Positions 1 through 55,728 of a stretch of 64,000 nucleotides of DNA are shown in pieces; position 1 is the stretch's first letter; every line of letters begins with the position of its first letter. Source of the DNA: Gonapodya prolifera JEL478. Lineage: Eukaryota > Monoblepharomycota > Monoblepharidomycetes > Monoblepharidales > Gonapodyaceae. The notes under the pieces were generated by a model that was not told the origin of the DNA, made no database searches, and was given only the letters and a program-made list of their open reading frames with translations. The translations under genes were made by a program, and so were the position numbers. Location of the stretch: assembly GCA_001574975.1 (NCBI GenBank), contig KQ965818.1, forward strand, positions 130,258 to 194,257, given 5' to 3'.

Positions 1-862
1 ATCCCGACCCAATTAATGTCTACCACGGTTGGTTTGACGAATGCCGAGACCTTTCATCCAGTCTACCATATCAAGTCGCAGTGATGGCAATCATGGTCTA
101 TTCAAATTGGCTCATCTCTTTGGGCCCACAGACAAAGAATATGCTTGAGGATACTCCATGGTGAGCCTCATATTCTAGCTGACGATATACCAAACAGAGA
201 TTTTTTTCAAAGGGTGGGCAGCGAGACCTTTGTACCATGCATGGAGCTTGCGAATGCCTGTACCAGAGTCATAAGTGCTCTCTTGAGCGCAGTGCCAACA
301 TTTCCTCTCCCAGGAACAAGTACTATATTCCACATCTTGCAGGTTGGCGCCATCCATCTCCTTTGTCTCAAACATGCACTTTCCAAGGTACCAAAAGCAG
401 AGACGGTGTCATTGAATCCCGGCGCATCTGGATCAGTTGGGATCGTAGGACAAGGAATGCAACTCTACGAAGTCTCAAACAGTATTGGAACCACATCGTG
501 GACGTCTGAACTGGCTTTGAACACTGTTATCATGGATGCCCTTGGGAAGGCACAAGTGCATGGACGTGTTCTTAGGATTCATGCTTTGGAGACCAAAATG
601 GAAGAAGGTGTTTGGAATATGTATGTTTCCCACCTTTTGCTTTCCTTCCTGCTGTAGAATATGGTGACGATCTATCTTGTGGCGAAACAAAAGGTGGGGG
701 GCTAAGTTAAAAGGTGTGTAGCATCGAGACTCCTTTCGCGTACGCCTTAGATGACTTTCTTTGTACTTTCAAGATGTCTTCCCTGTCGTTAGCGCACTTG
801 GAATGGCTTTGCAATTGACCGAACGCGTTGTTGAAGAGAATGACGAAGAATGTCAGGATTGA
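1..862 (+). CDS. Zn2Cys6 transcription factor, paralog A (3' part only)
   Basis: The window opens inside an exon of this gene. Three exon blocks match the C-terminal part of paralogs B-E: one ending in KNMLEDTPW near 160, a long one from about 215 to 621 (ELANACTRV, IHLLCLKHAL, VHGRVLRIHA), and a final exon ending in a TGA at 860-862. A 20-nt microexon at 694-713 encodes WGAKLK. This is the C-terminal half of the fungal-specific regulatory domain; the zinc cluster would lie left of the window. The visible part has open frames across its splice sites, so the copy may be functional. It is the first visible member of a head-to-tail array, with about 630 bp before the next start. Confidence 0.8.
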
Positions 863-1491
863 TTCGCCGTCATTCGTATAAAGTCTGTTGTTTATTTCTG
901 CTTCGTCGCGTTAATGTGTATTGCTCCAGCATCTGTTTCGTGGTTAATGATATTGTCGATCAATAAAGCATGAAATTGCCAGCAATACAATACCTTTTTA
1001 AATGAGCGAACTAACCCAAACATCATTGCAGTTGAGTGGTTTACTACATGGCGGCAGGGATAACGAAACTTGGCACGGAGTCAAGCACCAGTAGACGCTT
1101 GAACGCGGCATTTCAACACGTGCACGCAGCGAATCTGTGATATTCGACTGCAACCTAGCTCGATGGGAAAACAATATAGAAGCGGGATGCGAGGAGAAAG
1201 TGGTCTGGACCCGACCCTGGTTGCCTACAACTCGGTGCATGTTTATTCCGACAGAGAAGTGTAGGGTTCATTATGGACATCAAGAAAAGATATTTCGCTT
1301 CACAATGGAGTCCGTCGTGTCCGATTTGTCGTTGCCCTTTCGCGTCATGAGGTCACTTCCACATCCAATCTCACCCGATCATCCCAAAGTCAAGCTTTCA
1401 GGGACATTAATTAGTCATTCGCCGTTTCGCTCGCGAGCCAGCACACACGGACAAGACACCTCTAGTCCATAAAAGCTGCAGGCAAGGCGAT
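863..1491. other. Intergenic spacer A-B
   Basis: Non-coding spacer between the stop of paralog A and the start of paralog B. It should contain A's 3' end and B's promoter. I see no convincing gene or clear core promoter in it. Confidence 0.5.
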
Positions 1492-4400
1492 ATGTCCGGT
1501 GGAACCGATTCTCCTGTCGGGAATCCGCCAGGGAATGTCGTTGAAGGAGCCACGGCGAGACGTCGAAGAGACAAGGGCCATGTCTCCAAAGCATGTTTCG
1601 CCTGCCGAACAGCGAAAACAAAGTGAGCGATGCTGCGCGACAACCGTTTCGTGTCCACGTCAACCTCTCATGCGCCATCCTAACCATCCGAAACGCCCCC
1701 GCACAGATGTGACTCGCTTCAACCTCGATGCTCGCACTGCGAGATTCGCGATTTGGTGTGTGATTACAGCTGGGAACAGAAGCCAAGAGGTCCTACAGCG
1801 GATCCACTTTCGGCACGATCGGCACGAAGGGTGAGTGTCATATGTGTCGAAAACACGAGCAAAACGCAGGAGCGGGGCTCTTTTACTGTCGGAGATGGGT
1901 TGTCATGAGGGCTCGGGGATTCGACGTGGAAGGAGCCTGCTGTCACGATCGAGGGTAACATCTTGCACCTCTCCAGCGACGACGGCTCGAGCGAAACATC
2001 TACTCCGACTCTCAACCTATCCGGCATCATCAACTTCCACGAGACTCTCCCGAATCTGACTCATCCGCGAGCTCACATTCGCGCGCATCACCCCATCATG
2101 CTTCTCTTCCCATCAACGTGAAGACGCCGAGTACTCCAGCTCTGGGTGATCTTCTTTCGTTGGGAAACATGTCTCTCGGCGATTCAGTTCCAGCCCAGAC
2201 TCTGGGACACGTAAGTACAGGCCAAATCGCAGTGTCAAAGATCTAGTCGAGTTCCAGTCCAGCGCAACTCACCATCTCTTTGCCAGGCTTATCAACAAAG
2301 TTCAGTGGATCCTTTGTTGACCACTTACTACGATCCTCTCGTCGTTCCCCCGAGTGGTTATAATTCTTCAGACCCCCCCAGCCAAACACAGTATTCGACA
2401 TACCCACCGTCAGCTTCGCTCGCCGAGAGATCTTCCTTAGGCCTCGGTCAAATAAATACCAGCTCATTCGACTCAAGTTTTATTGGAGAATTTCTCTCAC
2501 AACCTGCGATTCCGCATCACAGTGCCGTCGCTCACCCCGAACATCAGAACCTGTTCAGCTCCGTCGGCACCTATTACGATACCACCGGACGTGCGGTGCA
2601 ACCAGTACACACGCCGGTCGTCAACGAGATGGGCGTTTTGGTGGATCCCGTGATCATGAACAGTACCATCATCGCACAGACGACTAATTCTCAAACAACT
2701 GGGCCCACGCTTGCCGCGTCACATGCGTCGCAGTTCCATCCCGTGGTAACTATGCCAACGGGTCTGATCTCTCGTGATTCGGACACCCAGACTCTAGCTA
2801 CGTACTCTCGCATACCCCAAGAAAATCAACCTTCCACAACTGCACCACACCGTATTGCCACACCGAGCGTGGAGGACCTGATCCGCGTTTCTGCTGCCTC
2901 TTCTGCAGAGAATTCAGTTTCGGTGTTCGTCGGTCCATCGCCGGTGAATCAAAATGCGTTGTTTCAAGGCGCCGGCCAATCGCGAAGTTTCTGGGACGTT
3001 GGTGGTTTCCCTTCGATGCCGCATATTCCCTCATTGCAAGGCTTTGCTCTCGGTGGTACTTATGCACAACCTCTCGCAAGCGGACATATTCCCTTAGTTT
3101 CGACTGGGGCCCTACCGCAACAGCTCTCCCTTTTCGACGACTTGCCGCCTCTTCCGAGCTCGGAAGTGATAAACGAGATTGTTTTCAAAGCGTTTGAGGA
3201 TGCGCAAGCGGGGGAAAATCTCTTCTGTAAGTCACAAAGTCCTGTCAGAGAATTAATAATCACAACAGTTGAACGTTTTCTGATTCCGTAGCGTTCTCAA
3301 TTATACACCGACCGACCTTTTTTGCTCGTCTGCGATCCGGGACCGCAGATCCCTTGCTGCTTCTCTCCGTGCTGTGTCTGGGCTGTCGCCAACATCCTGC
3401 TCGTGATGCCATCCGACCTATATTCTCGAGGCGAGCAGCACGGTATTTGAAATGGGCCACTGAAACCGCAAAGCAGAGTGGATCTATGCGATTTTCGACG
3501 TTCCAAGCGCTCATATTGTGGACAACGTATGTGATGGCGGATATGGGACGGTTGACGAGTGGTCAGTCAGTGAGCGTTTTCTAAGGAGGATACCATTTTG
3601 CGCGTTTCTTTTAGACAACCTAACGATTATGGCTTCCAGTGGATTACGTTTACTTTCGCAATCGCCAAAGCGATGCGCCTTGATGTGGAGGTTGATGCTT
3701 CGGCTCAAATGGATTGGATTGAGCGAGAGGAGCGACGCAGAGGATGGTGGTAAGTGTTGGAGTTCAGCCGCTCCAAAAGCCCGACAATATCAAGATTGAC
3801 TTCGTTCCATCATTTGCTAGGTGGTGTTGGTGCTTCGACTCAATCGTTGGAATCGGGTCAAGGTCGCAGCCCAAGCTTCCAGATATGCAGCCCACGATTC
3901 TCTTGCCGTGCACGGAAAGATATTTCAACTTGGATCCCACCCCTACAGTTCCACCTGAGAATAATCCTAGTTGGATTGCGCAGGCTGACCCTCCCCTCTT
4001 CATGGAATCCGAGCACGTATCATCTGAGAAGACAAAAGACCACTTGTGGCTTCTTTTTGCCGGTATGGCAAAACAGTGTCGTACGGTTTTGCGGCTAATG
4101 GCCAGTCCCCCGCCCAGTGGGGCTGAGGAGGCTTTATTGCAGAAACGGGATTTTGAAACCCACGCGCAGGTGTCAGGGAGGCTTCTGAGTGTGAGTTTTG
4201 ACCAACTCATCGTCAAGGAGCTATCTTCAGCATTTCGCACCATCCGAAGGTATTCCCGCCTGGTGTGCGCCTGCTGGCTTCGGACGAAGCTTTTCCTGGA
4301 GCACTTTATGTCTACCAGGGGTGGTTCGATGGGGTCCGAAATCTTCCTTCCAGTGTGACATATTCAATCGCGGTAATGGCGATAATGGTATATTCAAGCT

Positions 4401-5147: not shown

Positions 5148-5765
5148 AATTGAGTCTTCAGTAAATATTCATCTGCCATGTGTGTATCATGCCCCGTCAA
5201 GTAAACGTGTATTTGTTCCAAAATTTTGATTTGGACTTCAATTATTTTTTTTGTGGACCTTATCGTCGTGATATCTTTCCTGTTTCTTCTCTCGTTTTTC
5301 CACACACAATAACGTTCCCATGGACGCGAACCGTTCTTCCTTCCCCTCACCTTGGGACCTCCTCTCCACATGTTTATTTCGGAAGAGTAGTATACATGGC
5401 TGGAGATAGGGATTCAAATTTTGAAGCGACCCCATCATGTATCCCGCCTGGGTTCGTCCAATTGGCTGTCACGGTATTTGGTCAACGCCCTTTCCGATTT
5501 TCCACAATTGCAAAAAAAAAAAAAAAAATAGAAGACTGATTATAGACGTCAAGTAGTTCCAAGAACCTCACTTCATGACGAATGTAGTCGTGCAGGATTT
5601 CACTTTGCCTTACACATAAATGTTCTGTCCAGTTTGGTTATGCTTCTCCATCGCCCTGTCCCCGTACCTCATTTGACTTTTAGGGTCACTCAGCGTTCCA
5701 CTCGGGACCATTGCAAATCGCAGCGATCCCTCTGGAGGATCATCAACCGGGAATAACGTGCCGAT
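5148..5765. repeat. Spacer B-C with duplicated upstream sequence
   Basis: Spacer before paralog C. From about 5300 to 5590 it resembles the spacer before paralog D (about 9225-9500). Both contain GGACCTCCTCTCCACATG (5355 and 9269) and TTGGTCAACGCCCTTTCC (5478 and 9399) in the same order and spacing. The upstream region was therefore copied together with the gene. A run of about 18 A lies near 5511-5528. No gene is seen. Confidence 0.65.
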
Positions 5766-8700
5766 ATGCGTGGTGGCAGAGATCTCTCCCTTGCCGAGCC
5801 ACCAGCTCAAGGCATCGCGGGGAACAAAGCTCCAGCCAAGCGTCCCAAGGAAAGCAGATATGTTTCCAAAGCATGTTCAGCATGTCGAGCCGCCAAAACG
5901 AAGTGAGTGATGGTCTTGGACAATGGTTGAGAGTGAACTTTCAACCTGGCGTCCGCCATCCACCATCTGAAACGCCTGCCCATAGGTGTGACTCTGGTCA
6001 TCCTCGATGCTCGTTTTGCGAACTGCGTGACTTCGTGTGTGATTATAGCTGGCAGCAGAAAAGGCGAGGCCCAGCGGTAGATCCACTTTCGGCGCGATCT
6101 GAGCGAAGGGTGAGATTTCTCTCTGCTCCGGACGAATAGCAGGCACGACTCTTGACCTTGCCAGAGAATGATTCACCGGAGGAGTCGGGGATTTCGTTGA
6201 AGACGACAGTTAAACCACCATCTGCACAATCTCCGAATTATTGACATCGTTGCCTTCGCCAGCAACGACGGATGGAACGAATGATTCACACCGACTCTCA
6301 ACGCGTTCACCATCATCACTCTTCGCAAAACTCGCGAGAAACTGACTTGTCTGCGAGCTCGAACTCGCACCTGTCACACTCGAAAATCCCTGTTCTCATG
6401 AACGCAACGATTGCGAGTGACGAATTGCTGAGTGAACTTCTGTCTTTGGGGAAAACGTCGATTGCTGATGCGCCTGGAGATTCGCTGTTGCAACCGGCAA
6501 TTCCGCGCCAAATTGCAGTCACTCGTCCCGATCATCAGAGTCTATTCAGTACTGTTGGTATGGTTTCTTACAATCGTGGAAGTGAGGAGATGCCAAAGCG
6601 TGGGTTACAAGTCAGCAACGTGAGTGCTGTGGTGCTGTTTCGAACATCGTCAATTTAACCAAAGCCCCATTCAAAATGCCGTCAACGTGGGTACCCTTCA
6701 GTCGACTGCAACCACGACTGTCACATCGTATTCCTCGTTGGCTCCATTTGCGACAGGAGCTCTCGTTTCTGGAGTTGTGGACTACCACGCACTTCCAACT
6801 TCCTCTCAGTTCGCCCATTCACGTCACACCTCTTCACAAGGAATTGGTTCTAGCTTTCCTTTTTCCTCAAAACTTAGTCGCCTGCACGGTTTTACTCTTG
6901 GCGGCACTCTCCCCCATCATCTTGCACGAATTACAGCTCCCGTTAATCCTCCATTTTCATTGAACATGGAGCATCTATTGACTGGTGGATTACCACGACA
7001 AATCTCCCTTTTTGATGACTTACCGCCTCTACCAAGCTCGGATACTATGAACGAAATCCTTCTTAAAGTGTTTCAGGACGCACAAGCTGGGGACAACATC
7101 TTTCGTAAGTTCTGGAGTCTTATTTGTTTTCACATGAATAAAAACATGATGCGGTTTTTAAGCATTTTTAATTTTACACAAACCAACATTTTTCGCTCGA
7201 TTGAGATCGGGGACTCTAGATCCTCTCCTGTTGCTCTCCGTTCTTTGTTTGGGATGTCGAAAACACCCTGCACGTGACGCTATCCGACCACTGTTCTCAA
7301 AGCGAGCAGCGCGATACATAAAATGGGCCTCGGAATTTGCAATTGAGGGCACATTGCGTTTGGTCACATTTCAGTCGCTGGCATTGTGGACAAGTTTTGT
7401 GATGGCAGATATTGGACATGTGACAAGTGGGCATTCAGTGAGTTTTGATTTAAAAGTTTGGTGTATATCTTCTGCTTCATCAACGATCTTGACGTCCGTG
7501 TCCAGTGGTTCACGTTTACCCTCGCAATCGCTAAAGCGATGCGATTGGATCTGGAAGTTGATCCTTCGGTGGAAATGGATTGGATTGAGAGAGAGGAGAG
7601 ACGACGAGGGTGGTGGTACGTGCTTCACTTAACGCACTCTGAGTGTAAGCTCCAATCAATGACTTGGTCATCTAACAAGGTGGTGCTGGCACATGGATTC
7701 TATCACTGCGGTCGGTTACAGATCGGAGCCTAAACTACCAGACATGCAACATACTATTCTTTTGCCATGTGCGGAAACTTACTTCAACTTGGATCCTCCG
7801 CCGTCAGTTGCTCCTATGAATTTGCCCAGTTGGATTGTGCAGGCCAACCCCCCGCTTTTTATGGACCCTGCAAAACTGACTTCGGAGTTGACAAAAGACC
7901 ACGCGTGGCTTCTAATTGCAGGTGTCGCAAAACAAAATCGGACCATTTTGAGGCTTGCTGTCAATGATTCTCTCAGAGAGCCTGACAAGGAACCCTTGTT
8001 TGGTACACTTGCATTTAAAACCCATCTCGAGGTATCAGTTCGGCTGCTGAACGTGAGCTTCCGTTCGGTTATCATCGTCAAAGGATTTCTCTTTCATTTG
8101 ATATAATATTGAAGGTGTTCCCTCCTGCTGTTCATCTCATGACTTCGGATAAAATGCTTCCCGACCTTCTTCCTGTCTATCAAGGTTGGTTTTACGGGCG
8201 CCAAAACCTCCGGTCCAGTGTCCCCTACGCAATTGCAGTGATGGCAATCATGGTATATTCAATGTGGATCATTCCTATGGGACCACGGACAAAGAATATG
8301 CTTGAGGATACCGCATGGTGAGTCCCGCGCTATGCTCAGGCTGCCTCCGTCGTGTACCAAATAACTTGTTGAAAACGTTTCGTCAGGGTGGGCAGCGAGA
8401 GCTTTGTACCATGCATAGAGCTTGCGAATACCTGCACCAGACTCATAAATGCACTCTTGAAAGTAGCGCCAACTTTTCCGATCCCAGGAACGACTGTTCT
8501 CTTTCACATCTTCCAGATTGGCGCTATCCATCTTCTATGTGCGAAGCATGCACTTTTAAACGCGCCAATAGCAGAAAAGATGACATCAAACTCCAACAAG
8601 CCTGGTTCGGGCGGATTTCTGGGAAAAGGAGTGTCACTCGCCGAAGTCTTGAGCAGTGTCGAAACTGCATCGTGGACTTCTGACCAGGCTCTAAATACTG

Positions 8701-20933: not shown

Positions 20934-21054
20934 GGTCCATTCCAGGCGGCAAATTTATGTGATTGAAAGTAGGGAAAGTGGCTTACCAATTGCATTTATG
21001 CACGTTCGCCGTCTCGCTTTTCTCAGATAGCCGCCAGAATAAATACCTATCCAA

Positions 21055-22818
21055 TTACAGCTTCGCCTGCTTCTTGCCCCGTGTCTGTCCCAACCTACTC
21101 ATCGGCCACTTCTCCCCCGCAACTTGCTCATAATACGCCTTGGTCTCCCCGCCCACAACCGTCCTCGCCTGTCTCTGGAACCCGACAACCTCTCCAGCGG
21201 GGGTCCATATGATCGAGTCCCAGTACTCCACGTTTCCCGTCGCTGGTTTCTCGTGTCCGGGGTCGGCGTGACCGGGAAGCACCGACACAGGGACGTCCGC
21301 TGCCGGCTGCCCCGACATCGTGTACATGAAGGGCGTGTCCGGGGGGAAGGGCTTGTAGAATTGCAGGCTGAGCGAGCTGGTCACCGAGGGTATCAAGGGG
21401 CCGATTTCGCGCCGTAGGACCGCCGAGAGTGGGATGGTGTCGCAAAAGAGCGTCGCAGACTGGTGGGTGAGTTCAGGGGGGAGGGGCGGGGCGGGGTGGT
21501 TGGAGGTGGCAGTGGGGTGTGACGGTGTGACAGGGAATGATGGAAGAGAATAAAATGAGAACTCACCAGTTGGTCCACGGAACGACCAGACGGATGGCCT
21601 ATGCGACGGGCAGGCAAAGAGTATGGTGTTAATATGTACGGAGCACACGTTCTCGGAGATTCCCATGAGAAAGACTTGGACCCGCGTTGCCCTTCGTGGA
21701 GAATTCGCCTCCAGCAAACTCCTCGGCCAGCGCTTCGCACTTAGGCCTCGTTCTCGCGGAGCGTGAGTATTTCGATTTGCGCCTAGACCTCGGGTTCGCT
21801 CCTCGAATGAGTCCTCGGTCAGCACTCCGGGTTAGGCCTCGATATCGATCTGCGGTTCTTTGTCTCCGGGGGACTCCTCGGTCACCGCTTCGCTCTTATG
21901 CCTCGATAATTGATATCGCTCCGCGAGAATATTCTGCTTCGGGGCAAGTGATTCGCCTCCGGCAGATCCTCGCTGTGCTCTTGGTCTCTGTCGCTCAACT
22001 CACAAATAATAAACGGCACTGTATCCAGCGTCTCCTCCCACCTCTCCTTCCTCACCTCCTCCGGTCCCTTTTTAAACCTATCCTTCATCACCTTGAGCAC
22101 ACTTTCCGCATGCAACGTCCTCACAATCCTCTGCGACCGCGCCAAATGGTCCGGCCGTGGCTGACCCGTGACTTTTGTGATCACGTCCGGTACACCGGTC
22201 TGGGGAGTTGGGGCCAGGTGACGGAGGTGGGAGAAGTCGTACCGGGGGGATAGGCGGGTTCCGGAGGTGGGGGAGGCGTCCCCGGAGGGCGAGGGGGAGG
22301 AGAGGTGCCCGCAGACGGATTGGGCAAGCACGAGAGCGCTGTGGGATGTGGCCGAGCGGGCGGTCGCGCGGACGAAGCAGAGGCGGCGTGTGGAGCGGAT
22401 GATTTCGACGTCGATTTCTGTCCAACGTTTCGACATGTTACACAATAGATTCTTTTGGCACCAGAAGAACAAGCGGTACCCACCGACTTCCTCTCCCATG
22501 GCCACCGTGGCAATAATATCCGCCGTCAGGGTCATGATGTGGGGGAAACCCCTGGGCTGTACCGTGTTGAGAATGGCCTTTGCCGTGAGTGCGTTGAGGT
22601 AGCCTCCGTACATCCTGCCATCAAAAACTGCATCACCATCTCTCCTCCGCTACAACCCCAATCGTGGTGACTACGCACTTTCCTGGTCCGATTGCGGGTG
22701 CGCCGAAGGACATCTCTTCCGGTGTGATTCGTCTGTACACGCAGCGCTCGGGAGTGGACGAGACTGCGGTCAGCGCAAAGAAGGAGTCAAAGTCGGGGAA
22801 GGACGGCGATGGCGCCAT
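21055..22818 (-). CDS. Peroxisomal acyl-CoA thioesterase (TesB/ACOT8-like double hotdog)
   Basis: Enzymes of this family hydrolyse acyl-CoA to free fatty acid and CoA, in fungi usually in peroxisomes. Exon 1 starts at 22818 (MAPSPSFPDF). It joins to MYGGYLNALTAKAIL, the N-terminal hotdog core, and then to VEIIRSTRRLCFVRA. The second hotdog follows after a 405-bp intron (21599-22003): CDTIPLSAVLRREI, SLSLQFYKPFPPDTPF, IIWTPAGEVVGFQRQ. The protein ends in AKL, a type 1 peroxisomal targeting signal. The joins CEL/SATLFCD and GPGK/MYGGY keep the frame. The identification rests on the two-hotdog layout and the targeting signal rather than on a strict signature. The large intron carries a repeat tract. 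Confidence 0.75.
21599..22003 (-). repeat. Repeat-filled intron of the thioesterase gene
   Basis: GT-AG intron of about 405 bp, compared with 45-70 bp for most introns here. It contains three imperfect copies of a GC-rich unit (near 21717, 21812 and 21872) built around CCTCGGTCACCGCTTCGC and a CTTAGGCCTCGATAT-like part. A further module around 21920-21985 contains CTCCGCGAGAATATTC (plus-strand sense) followed by TTCGCCTCCGGCAGATCCTC. The same module recurs in the intron at 54322-54542. Confidence 0.72.
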
Positions 22819-23309
22819 GGCGGAGTTAGGTGTGGGTGTGTTGGGTCGGATACAAAATTGTGGCTTTTTTCCGCGGAAAAATTCAAACCGAGTATGAACA
22901 CCACAATTGAATTATGTGTCTTTGGAGGCGCGATACACAGAAGTACTGGATGAAATATTGCCTTCAATTGTGTCGAACAGAGAACGATCTAACAGTATTA
23001 CAAGTTACAAGTAACTTCACGCCTGGTAACAACTTTCGAACGTTTTCCCGTTATGTCCTCGAGCGTGGGCGTGGCTCCGTTCGTTCCGAATCAGCATCCG
23101 ATGACCGCCCAGCAATTTTGTGTAGAGCGGCACGGAGCGTAACGGTGAACAAAGACTGATCATTCAGTCCTATCAAATATTCCATACCCTCCAACTGGCA
23201 GTCACGTATCTTTACGTTCTTATGTGGAGGGTGAGCGGTTCCGCAATAAACAGAACGGACAGAACGGTATTCGAATTTATTTTTAACAATAAACAAAATC
23301 AATAAATAT
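22819..23309. other. Intergenic region upstream of the thioesterase
   Basis: Upstream region of the thioesterase. It should contain its promoter. I see no gene or strong motif. Confidence 0.4.
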
Positions 23310-44797: not shown

Positions 44798-47317
44798 ATG
44801 CGACTTTTCAATCACAGATTCGCCGCAATCGCGGTGGCGCTACTCTCTTTCAGCCTCAGAGCGCACACCCAAGGGTCCAACGCAACGGCATACGACACCA
44901 ATCCGAGCCCAGATCTGTCATGGGTTCCCCAGTCCATTCTCTCTCTCCGCTTGACTGCAAACATTTCCTTGTCAAGCACCGCACATCTCTTCTGGACGAT
45001 TTCCGAGTCAGACGCCACCGCAACATTCGCCATCGCAAATCGACAGCCGCCCACATGGCTGGGATTCGGGCTGTCGGAGACGGGATCCATGAAAGGAGCG
45101 GATATCGCGCTTCTACGGAAGAACGCCTCTGGGGGCTTATATTTGACTGATATGCACGGTCGGTACCATGTCTGCCTCAAACCCGATTATGCGCTACACA
45201 AGCACTAACACTTACTTTTTCCGTGATTTTTATTACACTACAGCATCGGACTTTGTTGAGCCAGCCGCCGATATGTCACAAGATCTCGAACTCATCACTG
45301 CAACTCAAACCGACAGCGTCACTGCATTCGCATTCAAGCGAAAGATCGACGCACAGTGTCTTGACGAAGATCTCTCTGTTCGACTCACTACCAACCAATG
45401 GGTCATCACTGCGTTTGGGAGCTCGGAAGCATTTGCATACCACGGTCCTAACAATCGGGCAGCAAGAGAACTTTGGCTTTTGGATCCAATGAGAAATTTC
45501 ATCCAGTTTGTTGCTCCGGCCGATGCACAAACTTTGGTGCTTCGATCGTCGTCTAAGCCCTACCAGATCCCCATGGAGGACACCGTTTATTGCTACAGCT
45601 TCCACACTCTACCTAATGGTGAGGGACACGTCTCACTTTCCACGGTACCTGACGTTTCAATTCATGCACTATGTTGCTCCCAAAGATACCACCTATCACG
45701 TCGTCATGGAAGAGGCAATTACATCCCCTGCAACGCACCATATTGTTGCGTACCGATGCAATGCTCAAGCGGCAGCATATGCAATGCAGCTGTATTCGGG
45801 AGCTGGCAACGAAACTCAGTGTGCACATTTCTCTGCGAATCCTGCCGATTATAAGCGTGTTTTCAACCCTTGTGGCGACGTCTGGGCAGGTTCGTAAATG
45901 TATTCGCTCGGTTAATGACTCAAACACAGAGCGCTCATACCGCCGCCTGAACTCCTCTTAGAGTGGGCACTTGGTCAAGGGCCTCTGATTATGCCAAATG
46001 ACGTCGGGAAGCCATTTGGTAACGACAGCTTCTACTCGCCAGTCCATATCATGCTGGAAATGCACTACGACAATACGCGACGCCTTAACGTCACAGATGA
46101 GTCTGGCCTAAAACTCACGTACACCAAGACCTTGCGAAAGTTCGACATGGGCACCTTGACCTTGGGGACAAACTTTCCATTGATTAAAATACCCAAGGGA
46201 CTGGCGGCCTTCCCTGTGCCCTCAGTTGTAAGGAGTTGATTGTCATTTGCGAGCTCTCCAACATGGGTCGTGATCCGTTATCTTCTCTCTCTTTTATCTT
46301 TCGCTTACAAAAGTGCCCCCAGGAGTGCACATCACAGATTCCGACACCTCTAAATGTGATTGGTAATTTCTTTCACATGTGAGATTCCAACATTTTTTTC
46401 TACTCCTATTTCGGTGGTCTTCATTTTGTCCATTGTTTTGCAGGCATAAGTGGGGCAAAGATATGAGTGCAAAGATCGTACGGAATGGCCGAGAGATCAT
46501 CGAGTTTCGAAATAAGTACTGGGACAACGGGTGAGGATTGTCGTAGTTGGACAATTTGACAAGAAGTGATCACTGAAGTTGCGATGACTTGCACTGCAGC
46601 TTTCAGAGCATTCAAAAGGTTTCAAACTTCTCGATACTACCTGGTACGTTGATGCCTCTGACTCCCTGTGACAGATGCATCGCTTGCTGATCACTGATTT
46701 CACACTGTGGCTCGAAAACAAAACAGGTGACACTATCCAGACGGTGTGCAACTACGACACCACGAAGTCGAATGAGACCATCGTCGGAGGATGGGCCACG
46801 TACAATGAGATGTGTTACTTGTGAGTTTGATATGTGATGAAGGTTCGATTACAAAAGTACACGTGAGCAATCTTAATATAACGTACGTTAATTAGATTCC
46901 TTTCTTACTATCCGGCAGTATCATTCCCGAATTGCTTGCCTTTGAGTAAGACCATGCATTTGCTTGTGGTAACAAGGTGTCATGACATCTTATCGGTGTA
47001 CGTTCCCTCTCCCCTCCCCAGCTGGAGACGGCACGACCGAATGTTCGTACGCAGGAAAATCCAAGACGGGGTCGAACCAGCTTCCACCGGGGTTCGCGGC
47101 CCTCCCTTCTGAGACGAATGCGCCAGGGGCTATGTGTCCAGCTGCTCTCAATGTGACGGCGTCCCCGCCACCAGTATCCTCGCCCTCCCCGTCCACATCT
47201 CCGAACAGCACCACTGGGACAGGAAAGCCGGGGTCGAGTGTGTGGTGGAAGCCTAGCTGTGCACCACAGGTGTGGGCCCTGGCGGCTGTTGCGGGTGCTG
47301 CTGTGATCATGTGGTGA
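44798..47317 (+). CDS. DOMON/copper monooxygenase, dopamine-beta-hydroxylase-like, copy 2
   Basis: Close paralog of the gene at 28846-31365, with the same intron positions and even the same genomic length. A signal peptide (MRLFNHRFAAIAVALLSF) is followed by DOMON (WLGFGLSETGSMKGADIA). The first copper domain has THHIVAYRC, the second HMH and YNEMCYLF with the expected ligands. The Ser/Pro/Thr-rich tail (SPSPSTSPNSTTGTG) ends in WALAAVAGAAVIMW, a GPI-type hydrophobic terminus. All joins keep the frame: PN/DTTYHVV after a 68-bp intron, VWA/EWALGQG, and PG/DTIQTVCNYD. Predicted to act at the cell surface with copper and an electron donor. The substrate is unknown. Confidence 0.88.
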
Positions 47318-53466: not shown

Positions 53467-55154
53467 TCACACCATCCCCACGCCCTCGCTCTTCAGAAAC
53501 TCTATGATATGCCCAAACACAATGCCAGGGTCCTCCACGTGCGGGCTGCGAAGTGCAAAGTGCGAAGTGCGACGAACCAAAGGGTTTAGCCGTTGAATCA
53601 AACAGTGATCAGGTGTACTCAAGGGACGCGAGTACTCACTAGTGACCATTTTCGGGGACCATCCGCACCTCACACCGTTTCGAAGCTGTCATGGCGTCTT
53701 TGTATGCGTTGGTTTCTTTCGTCGCGTCCTATTGTCAGTGGTAGTCAACAAGATCGCGATGGTGATATCCATGGGGAAGTGATGGATTAAAGAATTGTGC
53801 ACCTGAGCCTCTCCCCTGAAGACCGAGCTGAGTAACAAGAACTCACCCCGAAATCTGGGTCCTTGTCCCCGCACACCAGCAGCATCGGTTGTTTCACTTG
53901 TCCCACACGGGCCCAGCATCCGTTCTTGGGTGCTCTGTGGAGAAGGGTACAAGATTGGTGGTCAGTATGAGATAAACACGTTCAGCTTGCAGTCCTTCCA
54001 CACGGTCAATTAGCAACTCGCTTTTGTCATGTTCGCCCACCAGCCAAAACCCCAAGAATCCCAACTTCAGTTCTATTTCGCCCCATCCTCCCACCCGTCC
54101 CCCTTCCCCAACCCCACATCACAACACCCACCTCCCAAACGCCCCCACAGCCGCAATCCTCCCCCTATCTTGAACCAAATACCCCTTATTCTTTTCAATA
54201 TACTCCTTGAGATCGGCCGGCGGGTGCGAGGACGTAAACAGCGTGGCGTGGAACGAGGACCAGGCGGACGCGCCCCAGAGGGAGGTGAAGAGGAGGTGGG
54301 TCGAGAGGGAGAAGAGGGTTGCTGTGAGAGGGGGGGGTGGGGGGAGGTGAGTGCTCGACTCGGTAAACGCTCAGCGAAGGAAGTGCACCTCGGTAAAGCG
54401 ATATACGCCTCCAGCGGGTAAAACTGGCTCCGCGAGAGTACAATTCCGCTTCGCGGGGAACTCGCCTCCGACGAACGTCTCGCTCTGCTCGGACCGCTCC
54501 CTCCTCCTGCCTTACGGCCTCCGTCACTCCTTCGAAACTCACTAAACACCACCCCACTATCTTTCAAAATCCCGCCCAACGTCACGACGGCGCCAATTCT
54601 GTCCGGGTACTCTGCGGCCGCGTAGACTGCCGACGCTCCCGCAAGCGAGTTCCCGACGAATACGACGGGAGACGAGATGTGCTCGGCGTCGAGGATTGCG
54701 ATGACGTCTCTGCGTGTGTGAGGTGGGGGTGGTGGGGAGGTGTGGTGGGATATGAGAAGGGTCTGAGTCAGTGAGAGGAGGAATAAAACGTACCTTGCGA
54801 CGTCTTCGGGCGTGTAAGACGAAAAAGAGGACGAGGACTCGCCCGTGCCGCGGAGTTCGGTGACAATGACAGTGAGATTCGCCGCCGCGAGTTTCGGAGC
54901 GAGGAATCTGCCGTGTTCGAATGAAAGTTGTGGAGTGATTGGGGTCGAACGATCAGCGAATGATTCACGACCGCACTCCCCCACAAAGCCACGCACCTGT
55001 ACTCGTGTCTCGAGTCGCCCATTCCGGGCACGAGCACGACGACTCTTGCGTCTGCACTTGCTGCTCTCTTGAGTTCGTAGACCAACTCTCCGCCATCGAC
55101 GTTGAGCGATCGGCGGGATTCGGCAGAGAAGAGCGGCGGGAAGAGAGCTGACAT
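53467..55154 (-). CDS. Alpha/beta hydrolase
   Basis: Alpha/beta-hydrolase fold enzyme of unknown substrate. The start at 55154 gives MSALFPPLFSAESRRSL. It is followed by ARVVVLVPGMGDSRHEYR, VIVTELRGTGESSSSF and DVIAILDAEHISSPVVFVG. The nucleophile elbow is GNSLAGASAVYAAAEYP (Ser as nucleophile) and VVTLGGILKDSG comes next. After the enlarged intron (54322-54542) the frame continues with TLFSLSTHLLFTSLWG and EYIEKNKGYLVQDRGRI. The C-terminal part has QPMLLVCGDKDPDFG-like residues (acid) and a final segment SPHVEDPGIVFGHIIEFL. The usual catalytic His lies just before it, in a short exon. The gene appears intact. Confidence 0.82.
54322..54542 (-). repeat. Repeat-filled intron of the alpha/beta hydrolase
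   Basis: GT-AG intron of 221 bp (donor GTGAGTTTCG, acceptor CTCACAG) containing, on the coding strand, CGAGCAGAGCGAG, TCGGAGGCGAG, CGCGAAGCGGAAT and CTCTCGCGGAGC in that order. The same modules occur in the same order and orientation in the thioesterase intron at 21599-22003. Flanking exons join in frame when the whole segment is removed. Confidence 0.72.
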
Positions 55155-55728
55155 GGGCGATTGACGAGTGTGGAGAAGTGTAGAAGTGTAGAGTAAAGTA
55201 GAAGTGTGGATGAGAGAAGGAGAAGGCAGCGGGTGTGGTCGCTTTTGTGCATGGAAGTTCTGCCGACGCGGATGAAAGTCGATTAGGCGCACAGGACAAA
55301 CGACGCTTTCGCTGGCGGAGATAGGACGCGCGGCGTGCGGGGGGGACCGAATACGCCCCGAGAGACGCAAGTACCACGTGTGGGCAGACGGAAGTGTGGT
55401 GTGTGGCCGAGTTGGTGGAGTCGCTGGTTTGGATGTACAAATCACTCGGCGCCTGAGCAGAAGGAGCATTCTTTCCCATTCGGAGGCACCGTCGAACTGT
55501 TCTTCCGCAAAGGTAAAGTCGAACGTCTGTTATTCGATAATGGCATCGTCTCAACTAATACGTGTAAATGAAAGTCCACATGTCGAAGAAGACGGTGACC
55601 TGTTCACTCGACGAGGAAAAGAATGCGTGCTGGGCGTTAAGGTTTATCCCAGGGAGGCGAAGTGGTTTGCGCATTAGAACCTCACCTTCCTCCCGTCTGA
55701 TCAGCTCCCGTTTGTCTTTTGCTGTTCG
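55155..55728. other. Intergenic region upstream of the hydrolase
   Basis: Should contain the hydrolase promoter. No gene or strong motif seen. Confidence 0.4.

Follow-up and report, generated by a model that had tools for sequence, protein, structure and literature searches.

A dispersed family of small modular repeats that probably enlarges ordinary spliceosomal introns in Gonapodya prolifera

The window analyzed here, a 64,000-nucleotide stretch of contig KQ965818.1 of Gonapodya prolifera JEL478, contains a predicted thioesterase-like gene, one intron of which is 405 bases long and filled with an array of GC-rich modules. Related modules lie in an intron of an alpha/beta-hydrolase-like gene elsewhere in the window. 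An earlier note on this DNA read them as introner-like elements (ILEs), i.e., repeats that create or occupy introns. The question raised by this locus is, therefore, which of the two the repeats do. We conclude that the thioesterase-like intron is probably an ordinary spliceosomal intron that owes its enlargement to modular repeats of a dispersed family, and that the arrays of this family seem to colonize introns and not to create them.

Genes were predicted with a home-made two-strand spliced gene finder that was trained on the window and on the loci sampled as described below, with array bases barred from coding. The borders proposed in the earlier note for both introns were returned to the base, running on the minus strand from GTGAGT to TAG in the thioesterase-like gene and from GTGAGT to CAG in the hydrolase-like gene. 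Without the bar, the donors were the same, and the acceptors fell inside the segments (21747–22003 and 54370–54542). The N-terminal part of the predicted thioesterase-like protein matches Pfam 4HBT_3 (E = 5.4e-7), and the junction peptide of its array intron alone gave no Pfam match. In the hydrolase-like protein, a Pfam Esterase match (residues 27–98; E = 4.7e-6; 27 bits against a cut-off of 22) spans the junction at residue 70. The 312 predicted introns free of arrays comprise 233 of no more than 150 bases, with a median length of 77, and 79 longer ones, which may include mispredictions, with a median of 252 bases.

The two introns share a core of modules in the same order and on the same strand. 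The local alignment score of this core, 44, was not reached in 1000 dinucleotide shuffles of the second intron (maximum, 33) or by any of 283 other 221-base segments of the window. The modules described in the earlier note are present, with several corrections. The first intron contains one exact copy of CCGAGGAGTC and two copies with one mismatch each, and the second intron contains none, even with one mismatch allowed; the orientation is mostly sense, with CTCGCGGAGC also occurring inverted; and the common core covers only part of each intron. A BLAST search with the first intron missed the second one at E ≤ 0.001 (40 of 53 candidates scored), so that the pair of window introns alone is weak evidence, and it is the genome-wide family that carries the claim.

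The modules form a genome-wide repeat family. In searches of the same genome (47.56 Mb, 207 contigs), BLAST produced at least 54 matches to the first intron and at least 33 to the second. The pattern GAGGCCTAAG-N(6-10)-CTGACCGAGG matched 124 times, and with the spacer extended to N(11-40), 122 times, compared with no matches to the reversed-pattern control in either case. A second pattern, aimed at the next module, yielded 18 matches (control, 0), and GTGAGT located 20–50 bases ahead of the module start yielded 64 (control, 1). For detailed analysis, loci L009–L068 were chosen independently of gene context: 20 by similarity to the first intron (the best ones), 20 by module match (the first ones not already included) and 20 at arbitrary positions. 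All matches to the family profile of at least 20 bits in these loci and in the window, 53 arrays altogether, were included. Within the 114 kb that were not picked for arrays, the window contributes two arrays and a set of 20 pieces (2.5 kb each, at arbitrary round positions) contributes one; these three extrapolate to about 1250 arrays in the genome (range, 258 to 3657). Identity in the 25 longest alignments between array introns is 66–89%; higher values, up to 100% over 29 bases, are confined to short pieces.

Several other identities for the repeats were considered and rejected. A known RNA family was rejected because Rfam returned for window positions 21500–22100 a single match of 19.5 bits, below its cut-off of 60, and a tandem repeat because the three short rows reported by TRF in the same segment all lie outside the thioesterase-like intron. 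A pattern scan of prokaryotes gave one match (L074), about the chance level for 20 fixed bases, and a scan of viruses gave none. No account of such a family was found in the titles and abstract openings of the open-licence literature.

In the sample, the repeats are nearly always read in the direction of the gene and mostly lie within introns. The gene finder placed 44 of the 53 arrays in introns in the sense orientation and 3 in the antisense orientation (p = 2.5e-10), with 6 outside predicted introns or undecided. Identical counts were obtained after the array letters were shuffled, reverse-complemented or set to N, so the strand call derives from the flanks. The proportion of intronic arrays, 47 of 53, compares with an intron share of 0.21 of noncoding DNA by our own gene calls (p = 8e-26; against a share of 0.5, p = 3e-9). 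A run without the coding bar, superseded by the barred one, gave 30 intron-sense, 14 exon-sense, 5 intergenic, 3 exon-antisense and 1 intron-antisense arrays. By eye, four of the nine exceptions to the intron-sense rule (L060 1–78, L063 397–640, L064 1–138 and L067) have coding sequence on the sense side, including a peptide upstream of the L063 array that matches TatD_DNase (E = 1.7e-8); these would raise the intron-sense number to 48 of 53, and the formal count stays at 44. The claim that the repeats occupy introns in the sense orientation is thus strongly supported, and a predominance of intergenic or randomly oriented copies, the outcome that the earlier note named as refuting, was not seen in this sample.

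Some individual arrangements are of interest in their own right. The intergenic-looking array L019:4892–5030 sits between two similar stretches (CTCGGTGGC..TTTTGTGTCGCT on each side). The array L011:4704–4808 is opposite in orientation to, and directly adjoins, a sense array of the same predicted intron. In L021, two neighboring genes on opposite strands contain arrays (4061–4379 and 5664–5986) that are 89% alike over 135 bases; the two are mutually inverted, each being sense in its own gene, and the likeness begins 6 and 29 bases from the respective donors.

The conservation of protein domains bears on the splicing of the arrays. Twenty peptides containing 21 junctions, picked from the 44 where a likely domain was recognized, were compared with Pfam. 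At 13 of the 21 junctions, a single above-cut-off domain stretch runs through the junction and covers 15 or more residues to either side (the window hydrolase, L016, L019, L021 on the minus strand, L023, L027, L042, L052, both junctions of L055, L060, L062 and L066); judging from these predicted proteins, the respective arrays must be spliced out. In L010, L057 and L059, the junction merely touches the end of the domain; the matches in L011 and L053 are below the cut-offs, that in L025 is weak and located only downstream, and the L009 peptide has no Pfam match.

The repeat copies do not carry splice sites. When 43 sense array introns were compared all against all, only 1 of the 940 alignments (E ≤ 1e-8) included both donors and none included both acceptors, and the alignment starts were offset by a median of 59 bases. 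Short duplications at exon borders are not in excess, border shift duplications of at least 3 bases being found in 5 of 43 array introns and in 26 of 135 others. Near-identical copies, as expected of active introner families, were not found, although old, inactive families could look alike.

Comparison of paralogous genes speaks to the age of the intron positions. In a chitinase gene on contig C27, the gap between the exon matches around the array intron is 246 bases, compared with 157 bases in a close copy on C21; the exons are alike, and the arrays differ by whole modules. In three chitinase paralogues (49–63% identity), the intron sits at the same position, and the gaps measure only 57, 56 and 62 bases; hence, in this one gene family, the intron position exists unenlarged in paralogues. 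Both window genes (20950–22850 and 53600–55200) have a diverged second copy on C29 (46072–47461 and 18145–19546, respectively), with pieces at 73–91% identity. The hydrolase copy (pieces at 80–91% DNA identity) has an intron at the same place, with a shorter and degraded array. The thioesterase copy (46700–47300) retains array modules along with the 3′ part of the intron, but its upstream exon lacks the end and most of the following intron is gone, so that gene decay or a misassembly seems likely. The C27/C21 pair resembles the window/C29 pairs, in line with partial duplication or a retained second haplotype. For L021 and L026, where 40 of 404 and 40 of 433 candidates, respectively, were scored, no second gene copy was detected; almost all of the matches in these searches were inside array introns, and one 87% match to L026 (query residues 844–986) lies mostly upstream of the profile array.

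The modules look like small hairpins of an extra-stable DNA mini-hairpin motif, to judge from their sequences: GNA or GNNA loops closed by at least two G-C pairs are described as extraordinarily stable DNA mini-hairpins (PMC4686876). With 30 bases of flank included, the 53 arrays contain 90 hairpins that have a stem of at least 4 and a C(GNA)G loop, compared with a mean of 2.6 (maximum, 7) in 50 shuffles, and 22 that have a C(GNNA)G loop, compared with a mean of 2.9 (maximum, 7); these are not independent events because related copies inherit loops by descent. At least one such hairpin is present in 44 of the 53 arrays. In the main module, the outer G and A of the loops are kept better than the middle bases, with G..A loops in 46 of 55 three-base cases and in 40 of 45 and 73 of 95 four-base cases among the listed copies. 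Three of five tested stem pairs show associated changes (p = 0.0002, 9.6e-6 and 0.0007; p = 1 for the other two), in tables that omit cells outside the four pair types, and the association may reflect descent.

The content of splice signals differs between the two strands of the arrays. In the sense reading, the arrays contain 170 YAG, compared with 284 in shuffles, and 10 GTRAG, compared with 31; in the antisense reading, YAG occurs 294 times, compared with 258. The sense orientation would be kept since few YAG and GTRAG signals occur in the sense reading, the antisense reading being richer in YAG, and possibly also since the strand that forms the hairpins is the non-template strand exposed by transcription. 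We infer that short pieces comprising multiple modules would be copied between introns and would grow or shrink there, probably via slippage or template switching at mini-hairpins on a single strand. No host function is needed for the spread of the arrays and for their strand bias.

Several observations weigh against ordinary introns enlarged in this manner. In two other chitinase paralogues (at C27:348.5k and C21:410.0k), gaps of 211 and 218 bases were measured. The short-chain dehydrogenase gene of L055 has two array introns (82–411 and 501–683). A distant paralogue, located on C47 and 42% identical, aligns with residues 27–128 in one open frame and thus has no intron at junction 56, which is also crossed by shorter matches in C4, C19, C26 and C43. 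As read from these frames, the difference may be due to loss in the paralogue or gain in L055, and some positions may therefore have gained an intron. The donors of array introns are uniform, with GTGAGT in 30 of 42 array introns shorter than 700 bases, compared with 62 of 227 other introns of 45–150 bases and 14 of 79 longer ones, which would also be expected of an element that brings its own donor. A test of acceptor scores had the opposite outcome to the YAG counts (sense, 268, compared with 81 in shuffles; antisense, 83, compared with 133), a reversal that we think is inflated by the CTGAC of the main module. With respect to structure, the fold energies of whole introns are close to those of shuffles (z from -0.03 to -1.06 in five folds); perfect stems in all three length classes are within the permutation range (8 compared with a mean of 7.0 and a maximum of 14; 12 compared with 8.7 and 14; 16 compared with 15.4 and 24); and the window introns are degenerate, with two hairpins of stem at least 3 each, a number matched by 27 of 300 and 13 of 300 shuffles. 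Exceptional global folding was rejected on the five folds, and covariation in the stems was rejected, with the perfect-stem counts inside the permuted range and three of five single pairs associated.

The alternatives differ in what they make of the same facts. Were the repeats introners, mobile introns with their own splice sites that make new introns on insertion, one would expect the sense copies within introns of unrelated genes, the uniform donors, the leader motifs often located a short distance behind the donor, and the L055 array intron that is absent in a dehydrogenase paralogue. The phases 0, 1 and 2 of array introns (11, 14 and 8) are also flatter than those of others (69, 39 and 27), both flanking exons being at least 80 bases long. 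However, the unit lacks splice sites, its alignment starts are offset, border duplications are not in excess, and the intron position is common to homologous copies in the chitinase and hydrolase genes. On these grounds, with the L055 paralogue counting against the rejection, we reject the introner as the main explanation and consider it improbable; of the claim in the earlier note, the occupation of introns is supported, and the creation of introns is not. Still less plausible is a passive dispersed repeat that has no preference for introns and is intronic merely because the sampled DNA is largely genic. The gene calls are home-made, and a small number of copies appear to lie between genes (L019 4892 and, possibly, L014 and L010 3581), as such a repeat would allow, but the concentration in introns, which make up only about one-fifth of noncoding bases, and the 44 to 3 orientation led us to reject it as highly unlikely.

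A role of the arrays as functional intronic RNA, in which hairpins fold long introns to bring the donor near the acceptor or CTGAC supplies spare branch points, would account for the sense orientation and the associated stem changes. It would also account for the 81 copies of CTGAC in sense arrays, compared with 10.6 in shuffles, and for the G-runs of at least 5 in the first 60 bases, which are present in 15 of 42 array introns, compared with 16 of 227 introns of 45–150 bases and 7 of 79 longer ones. Nevertheless, global fold energies are shuffle-like, the arrays of close copies differ by whole modules, and the GNRA loop type of stable RNA is not favored, with 26 GNRA and 87 GNYA among the 113 four-base G..A loops of the listed copies. 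Among branch-like words, CTCAC shows the strongest enrichment near the acceptors of ordinary introns, and CTGAC occurs in only 7 of 125 such introns; thus, the supply of branch points was rejected. We hold a functional RNA to be quite improbable. Long G-runs were noted just behind the donor in, for example, L027, L065 and L050, and also ahead of arrays outside predicted introns (L014, L019). C-runs of at least 5 near the acceptor are found in 9 of 42 array introns and 25 of 227 others (p = 0.076), and those of at least 4 in the last 40 bases in 19 of 42 and 48 of 227 (p = 0.0017); pairing of poly-G with poly-C was dropped because the excess of C-runs near acceptors is weak. An alternative that we regard as unlikely holds that the elements spread as single-stranded DNA mini-hairpins into the non-template intron strand exposed by transcription, with the GNA and GNNA loops as a recognition or priming structure. 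Entry during transcription would then account for the sense orientation as well as for the placement in introns. Enlargement of ordinary introns by the dispersed modular family remains the explanation that we prefer.

Table 1 Features of the two array-containing introns and their genes in the window.
Feature	Position	Strand	Basis or remark
Predicted thioesterase-like gene, 4 exons in model	21055–22818	-	Gene finder score 96; no in-frame stops
GT-AG intron of 405 bases in thioesterase-like gene, array-filled	21599–22003	-	Gene finder borders with array bases barred from coding
Repeat array in thioesterase-like intron, sense	21673–21995	-	nhmmer family profile, best 60 bits
3′ portion of thioesterase-like intron with acceptor, without profile matches	21599–21672	-	
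Core common to both introns, copy in thioesterase-like gene	21918–21980	-	Local alignment score 44, reached by 0 of 1000 shuffles
Mini-hairpin GCC(GGA)GGC, thioesterase-like intron	21955–21963	-	
Mini-hairpin TCGC(GGA)GCGA, thioesterase-like intron	21916–21926	-	
Inverted copy (one) of CTCGCGGAGC within array	21753–21762	+	Pairs in predicted folds with sense copy 21918–21927
GT-AG intron of 221 bases in alpha/beta-hydrolase-like gene, shorter array	54322–54542	-	Exact gene finder borders
Repeat array in hydrolase-like intron	54419–54505	-	Family profile, 38 bits
Core common to both introns, copy in hydrolase-like gene	54427–54490	-	
Mini-hairpin CCGC(GAA)GCGG, hydrolase-like intron	54446–54456	-	
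Mini-hairpin GCC(GTAA)GGC, hydrolase-like intron	54509–54518	-	

The family resembles several known systems without coinciding with any of those compared here. Bacterial REP elements likewise consist of small hairpins at dispersed sites, which probably act in the form of single-stranded DNA; in contrast to the repeats described here, they are bacterial and intergenic. REP elements are mobilized by a transposase. With introners and fungal ILEs, the family shares dispersed sense repeats in introns of unrelated genes of one genome. It differs from them in that the unit has no splice sites, the number of modules varies between arrays, and, in one clear family, the intron position is common with unenlarged paralogues. 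The introners of Amoebophrya are also intronic repeats with predicted hairpins (PMC7789003); there, the inverted repeats are described as connecting the two ends of the intron and the direct repeats as overlapping its borders, whereas the mini-hairpins here are internal to GT-AG introns. The repetitive hairpin-forming and double-hairpin elements of mitochondria are small dispersed hairpin modules, too, and sometimes tandem (PMC2800124); as described there, they are mitochondrial, have longer stems and show no tie to spliceosomal introns or to the gene strand. The GNA or GNNA loop on at least two G-C pairs is shared with the extra-stable mini-hairpins of the GCGAAGC type, which are described as DNA fragments used in aptamers and not as an intronic repeat family (PMC4686876).

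Thus, a single recognizable repeat family is present in at least 43 sampled introns and perhaps at some 1250 places in the genome of G. prolifera. The growth of introns is usually ascribed to transposon insertion, and new introns are ascribed to introners. With one family residing in many introns and the number of modules changing between close copies, intron growth and strand preference become measurable within one genome. Moreover, because the loop motif matches a DNA structure described as extraordinarily stable (PMC4686876), a cause at the level of DNA becomes testable.
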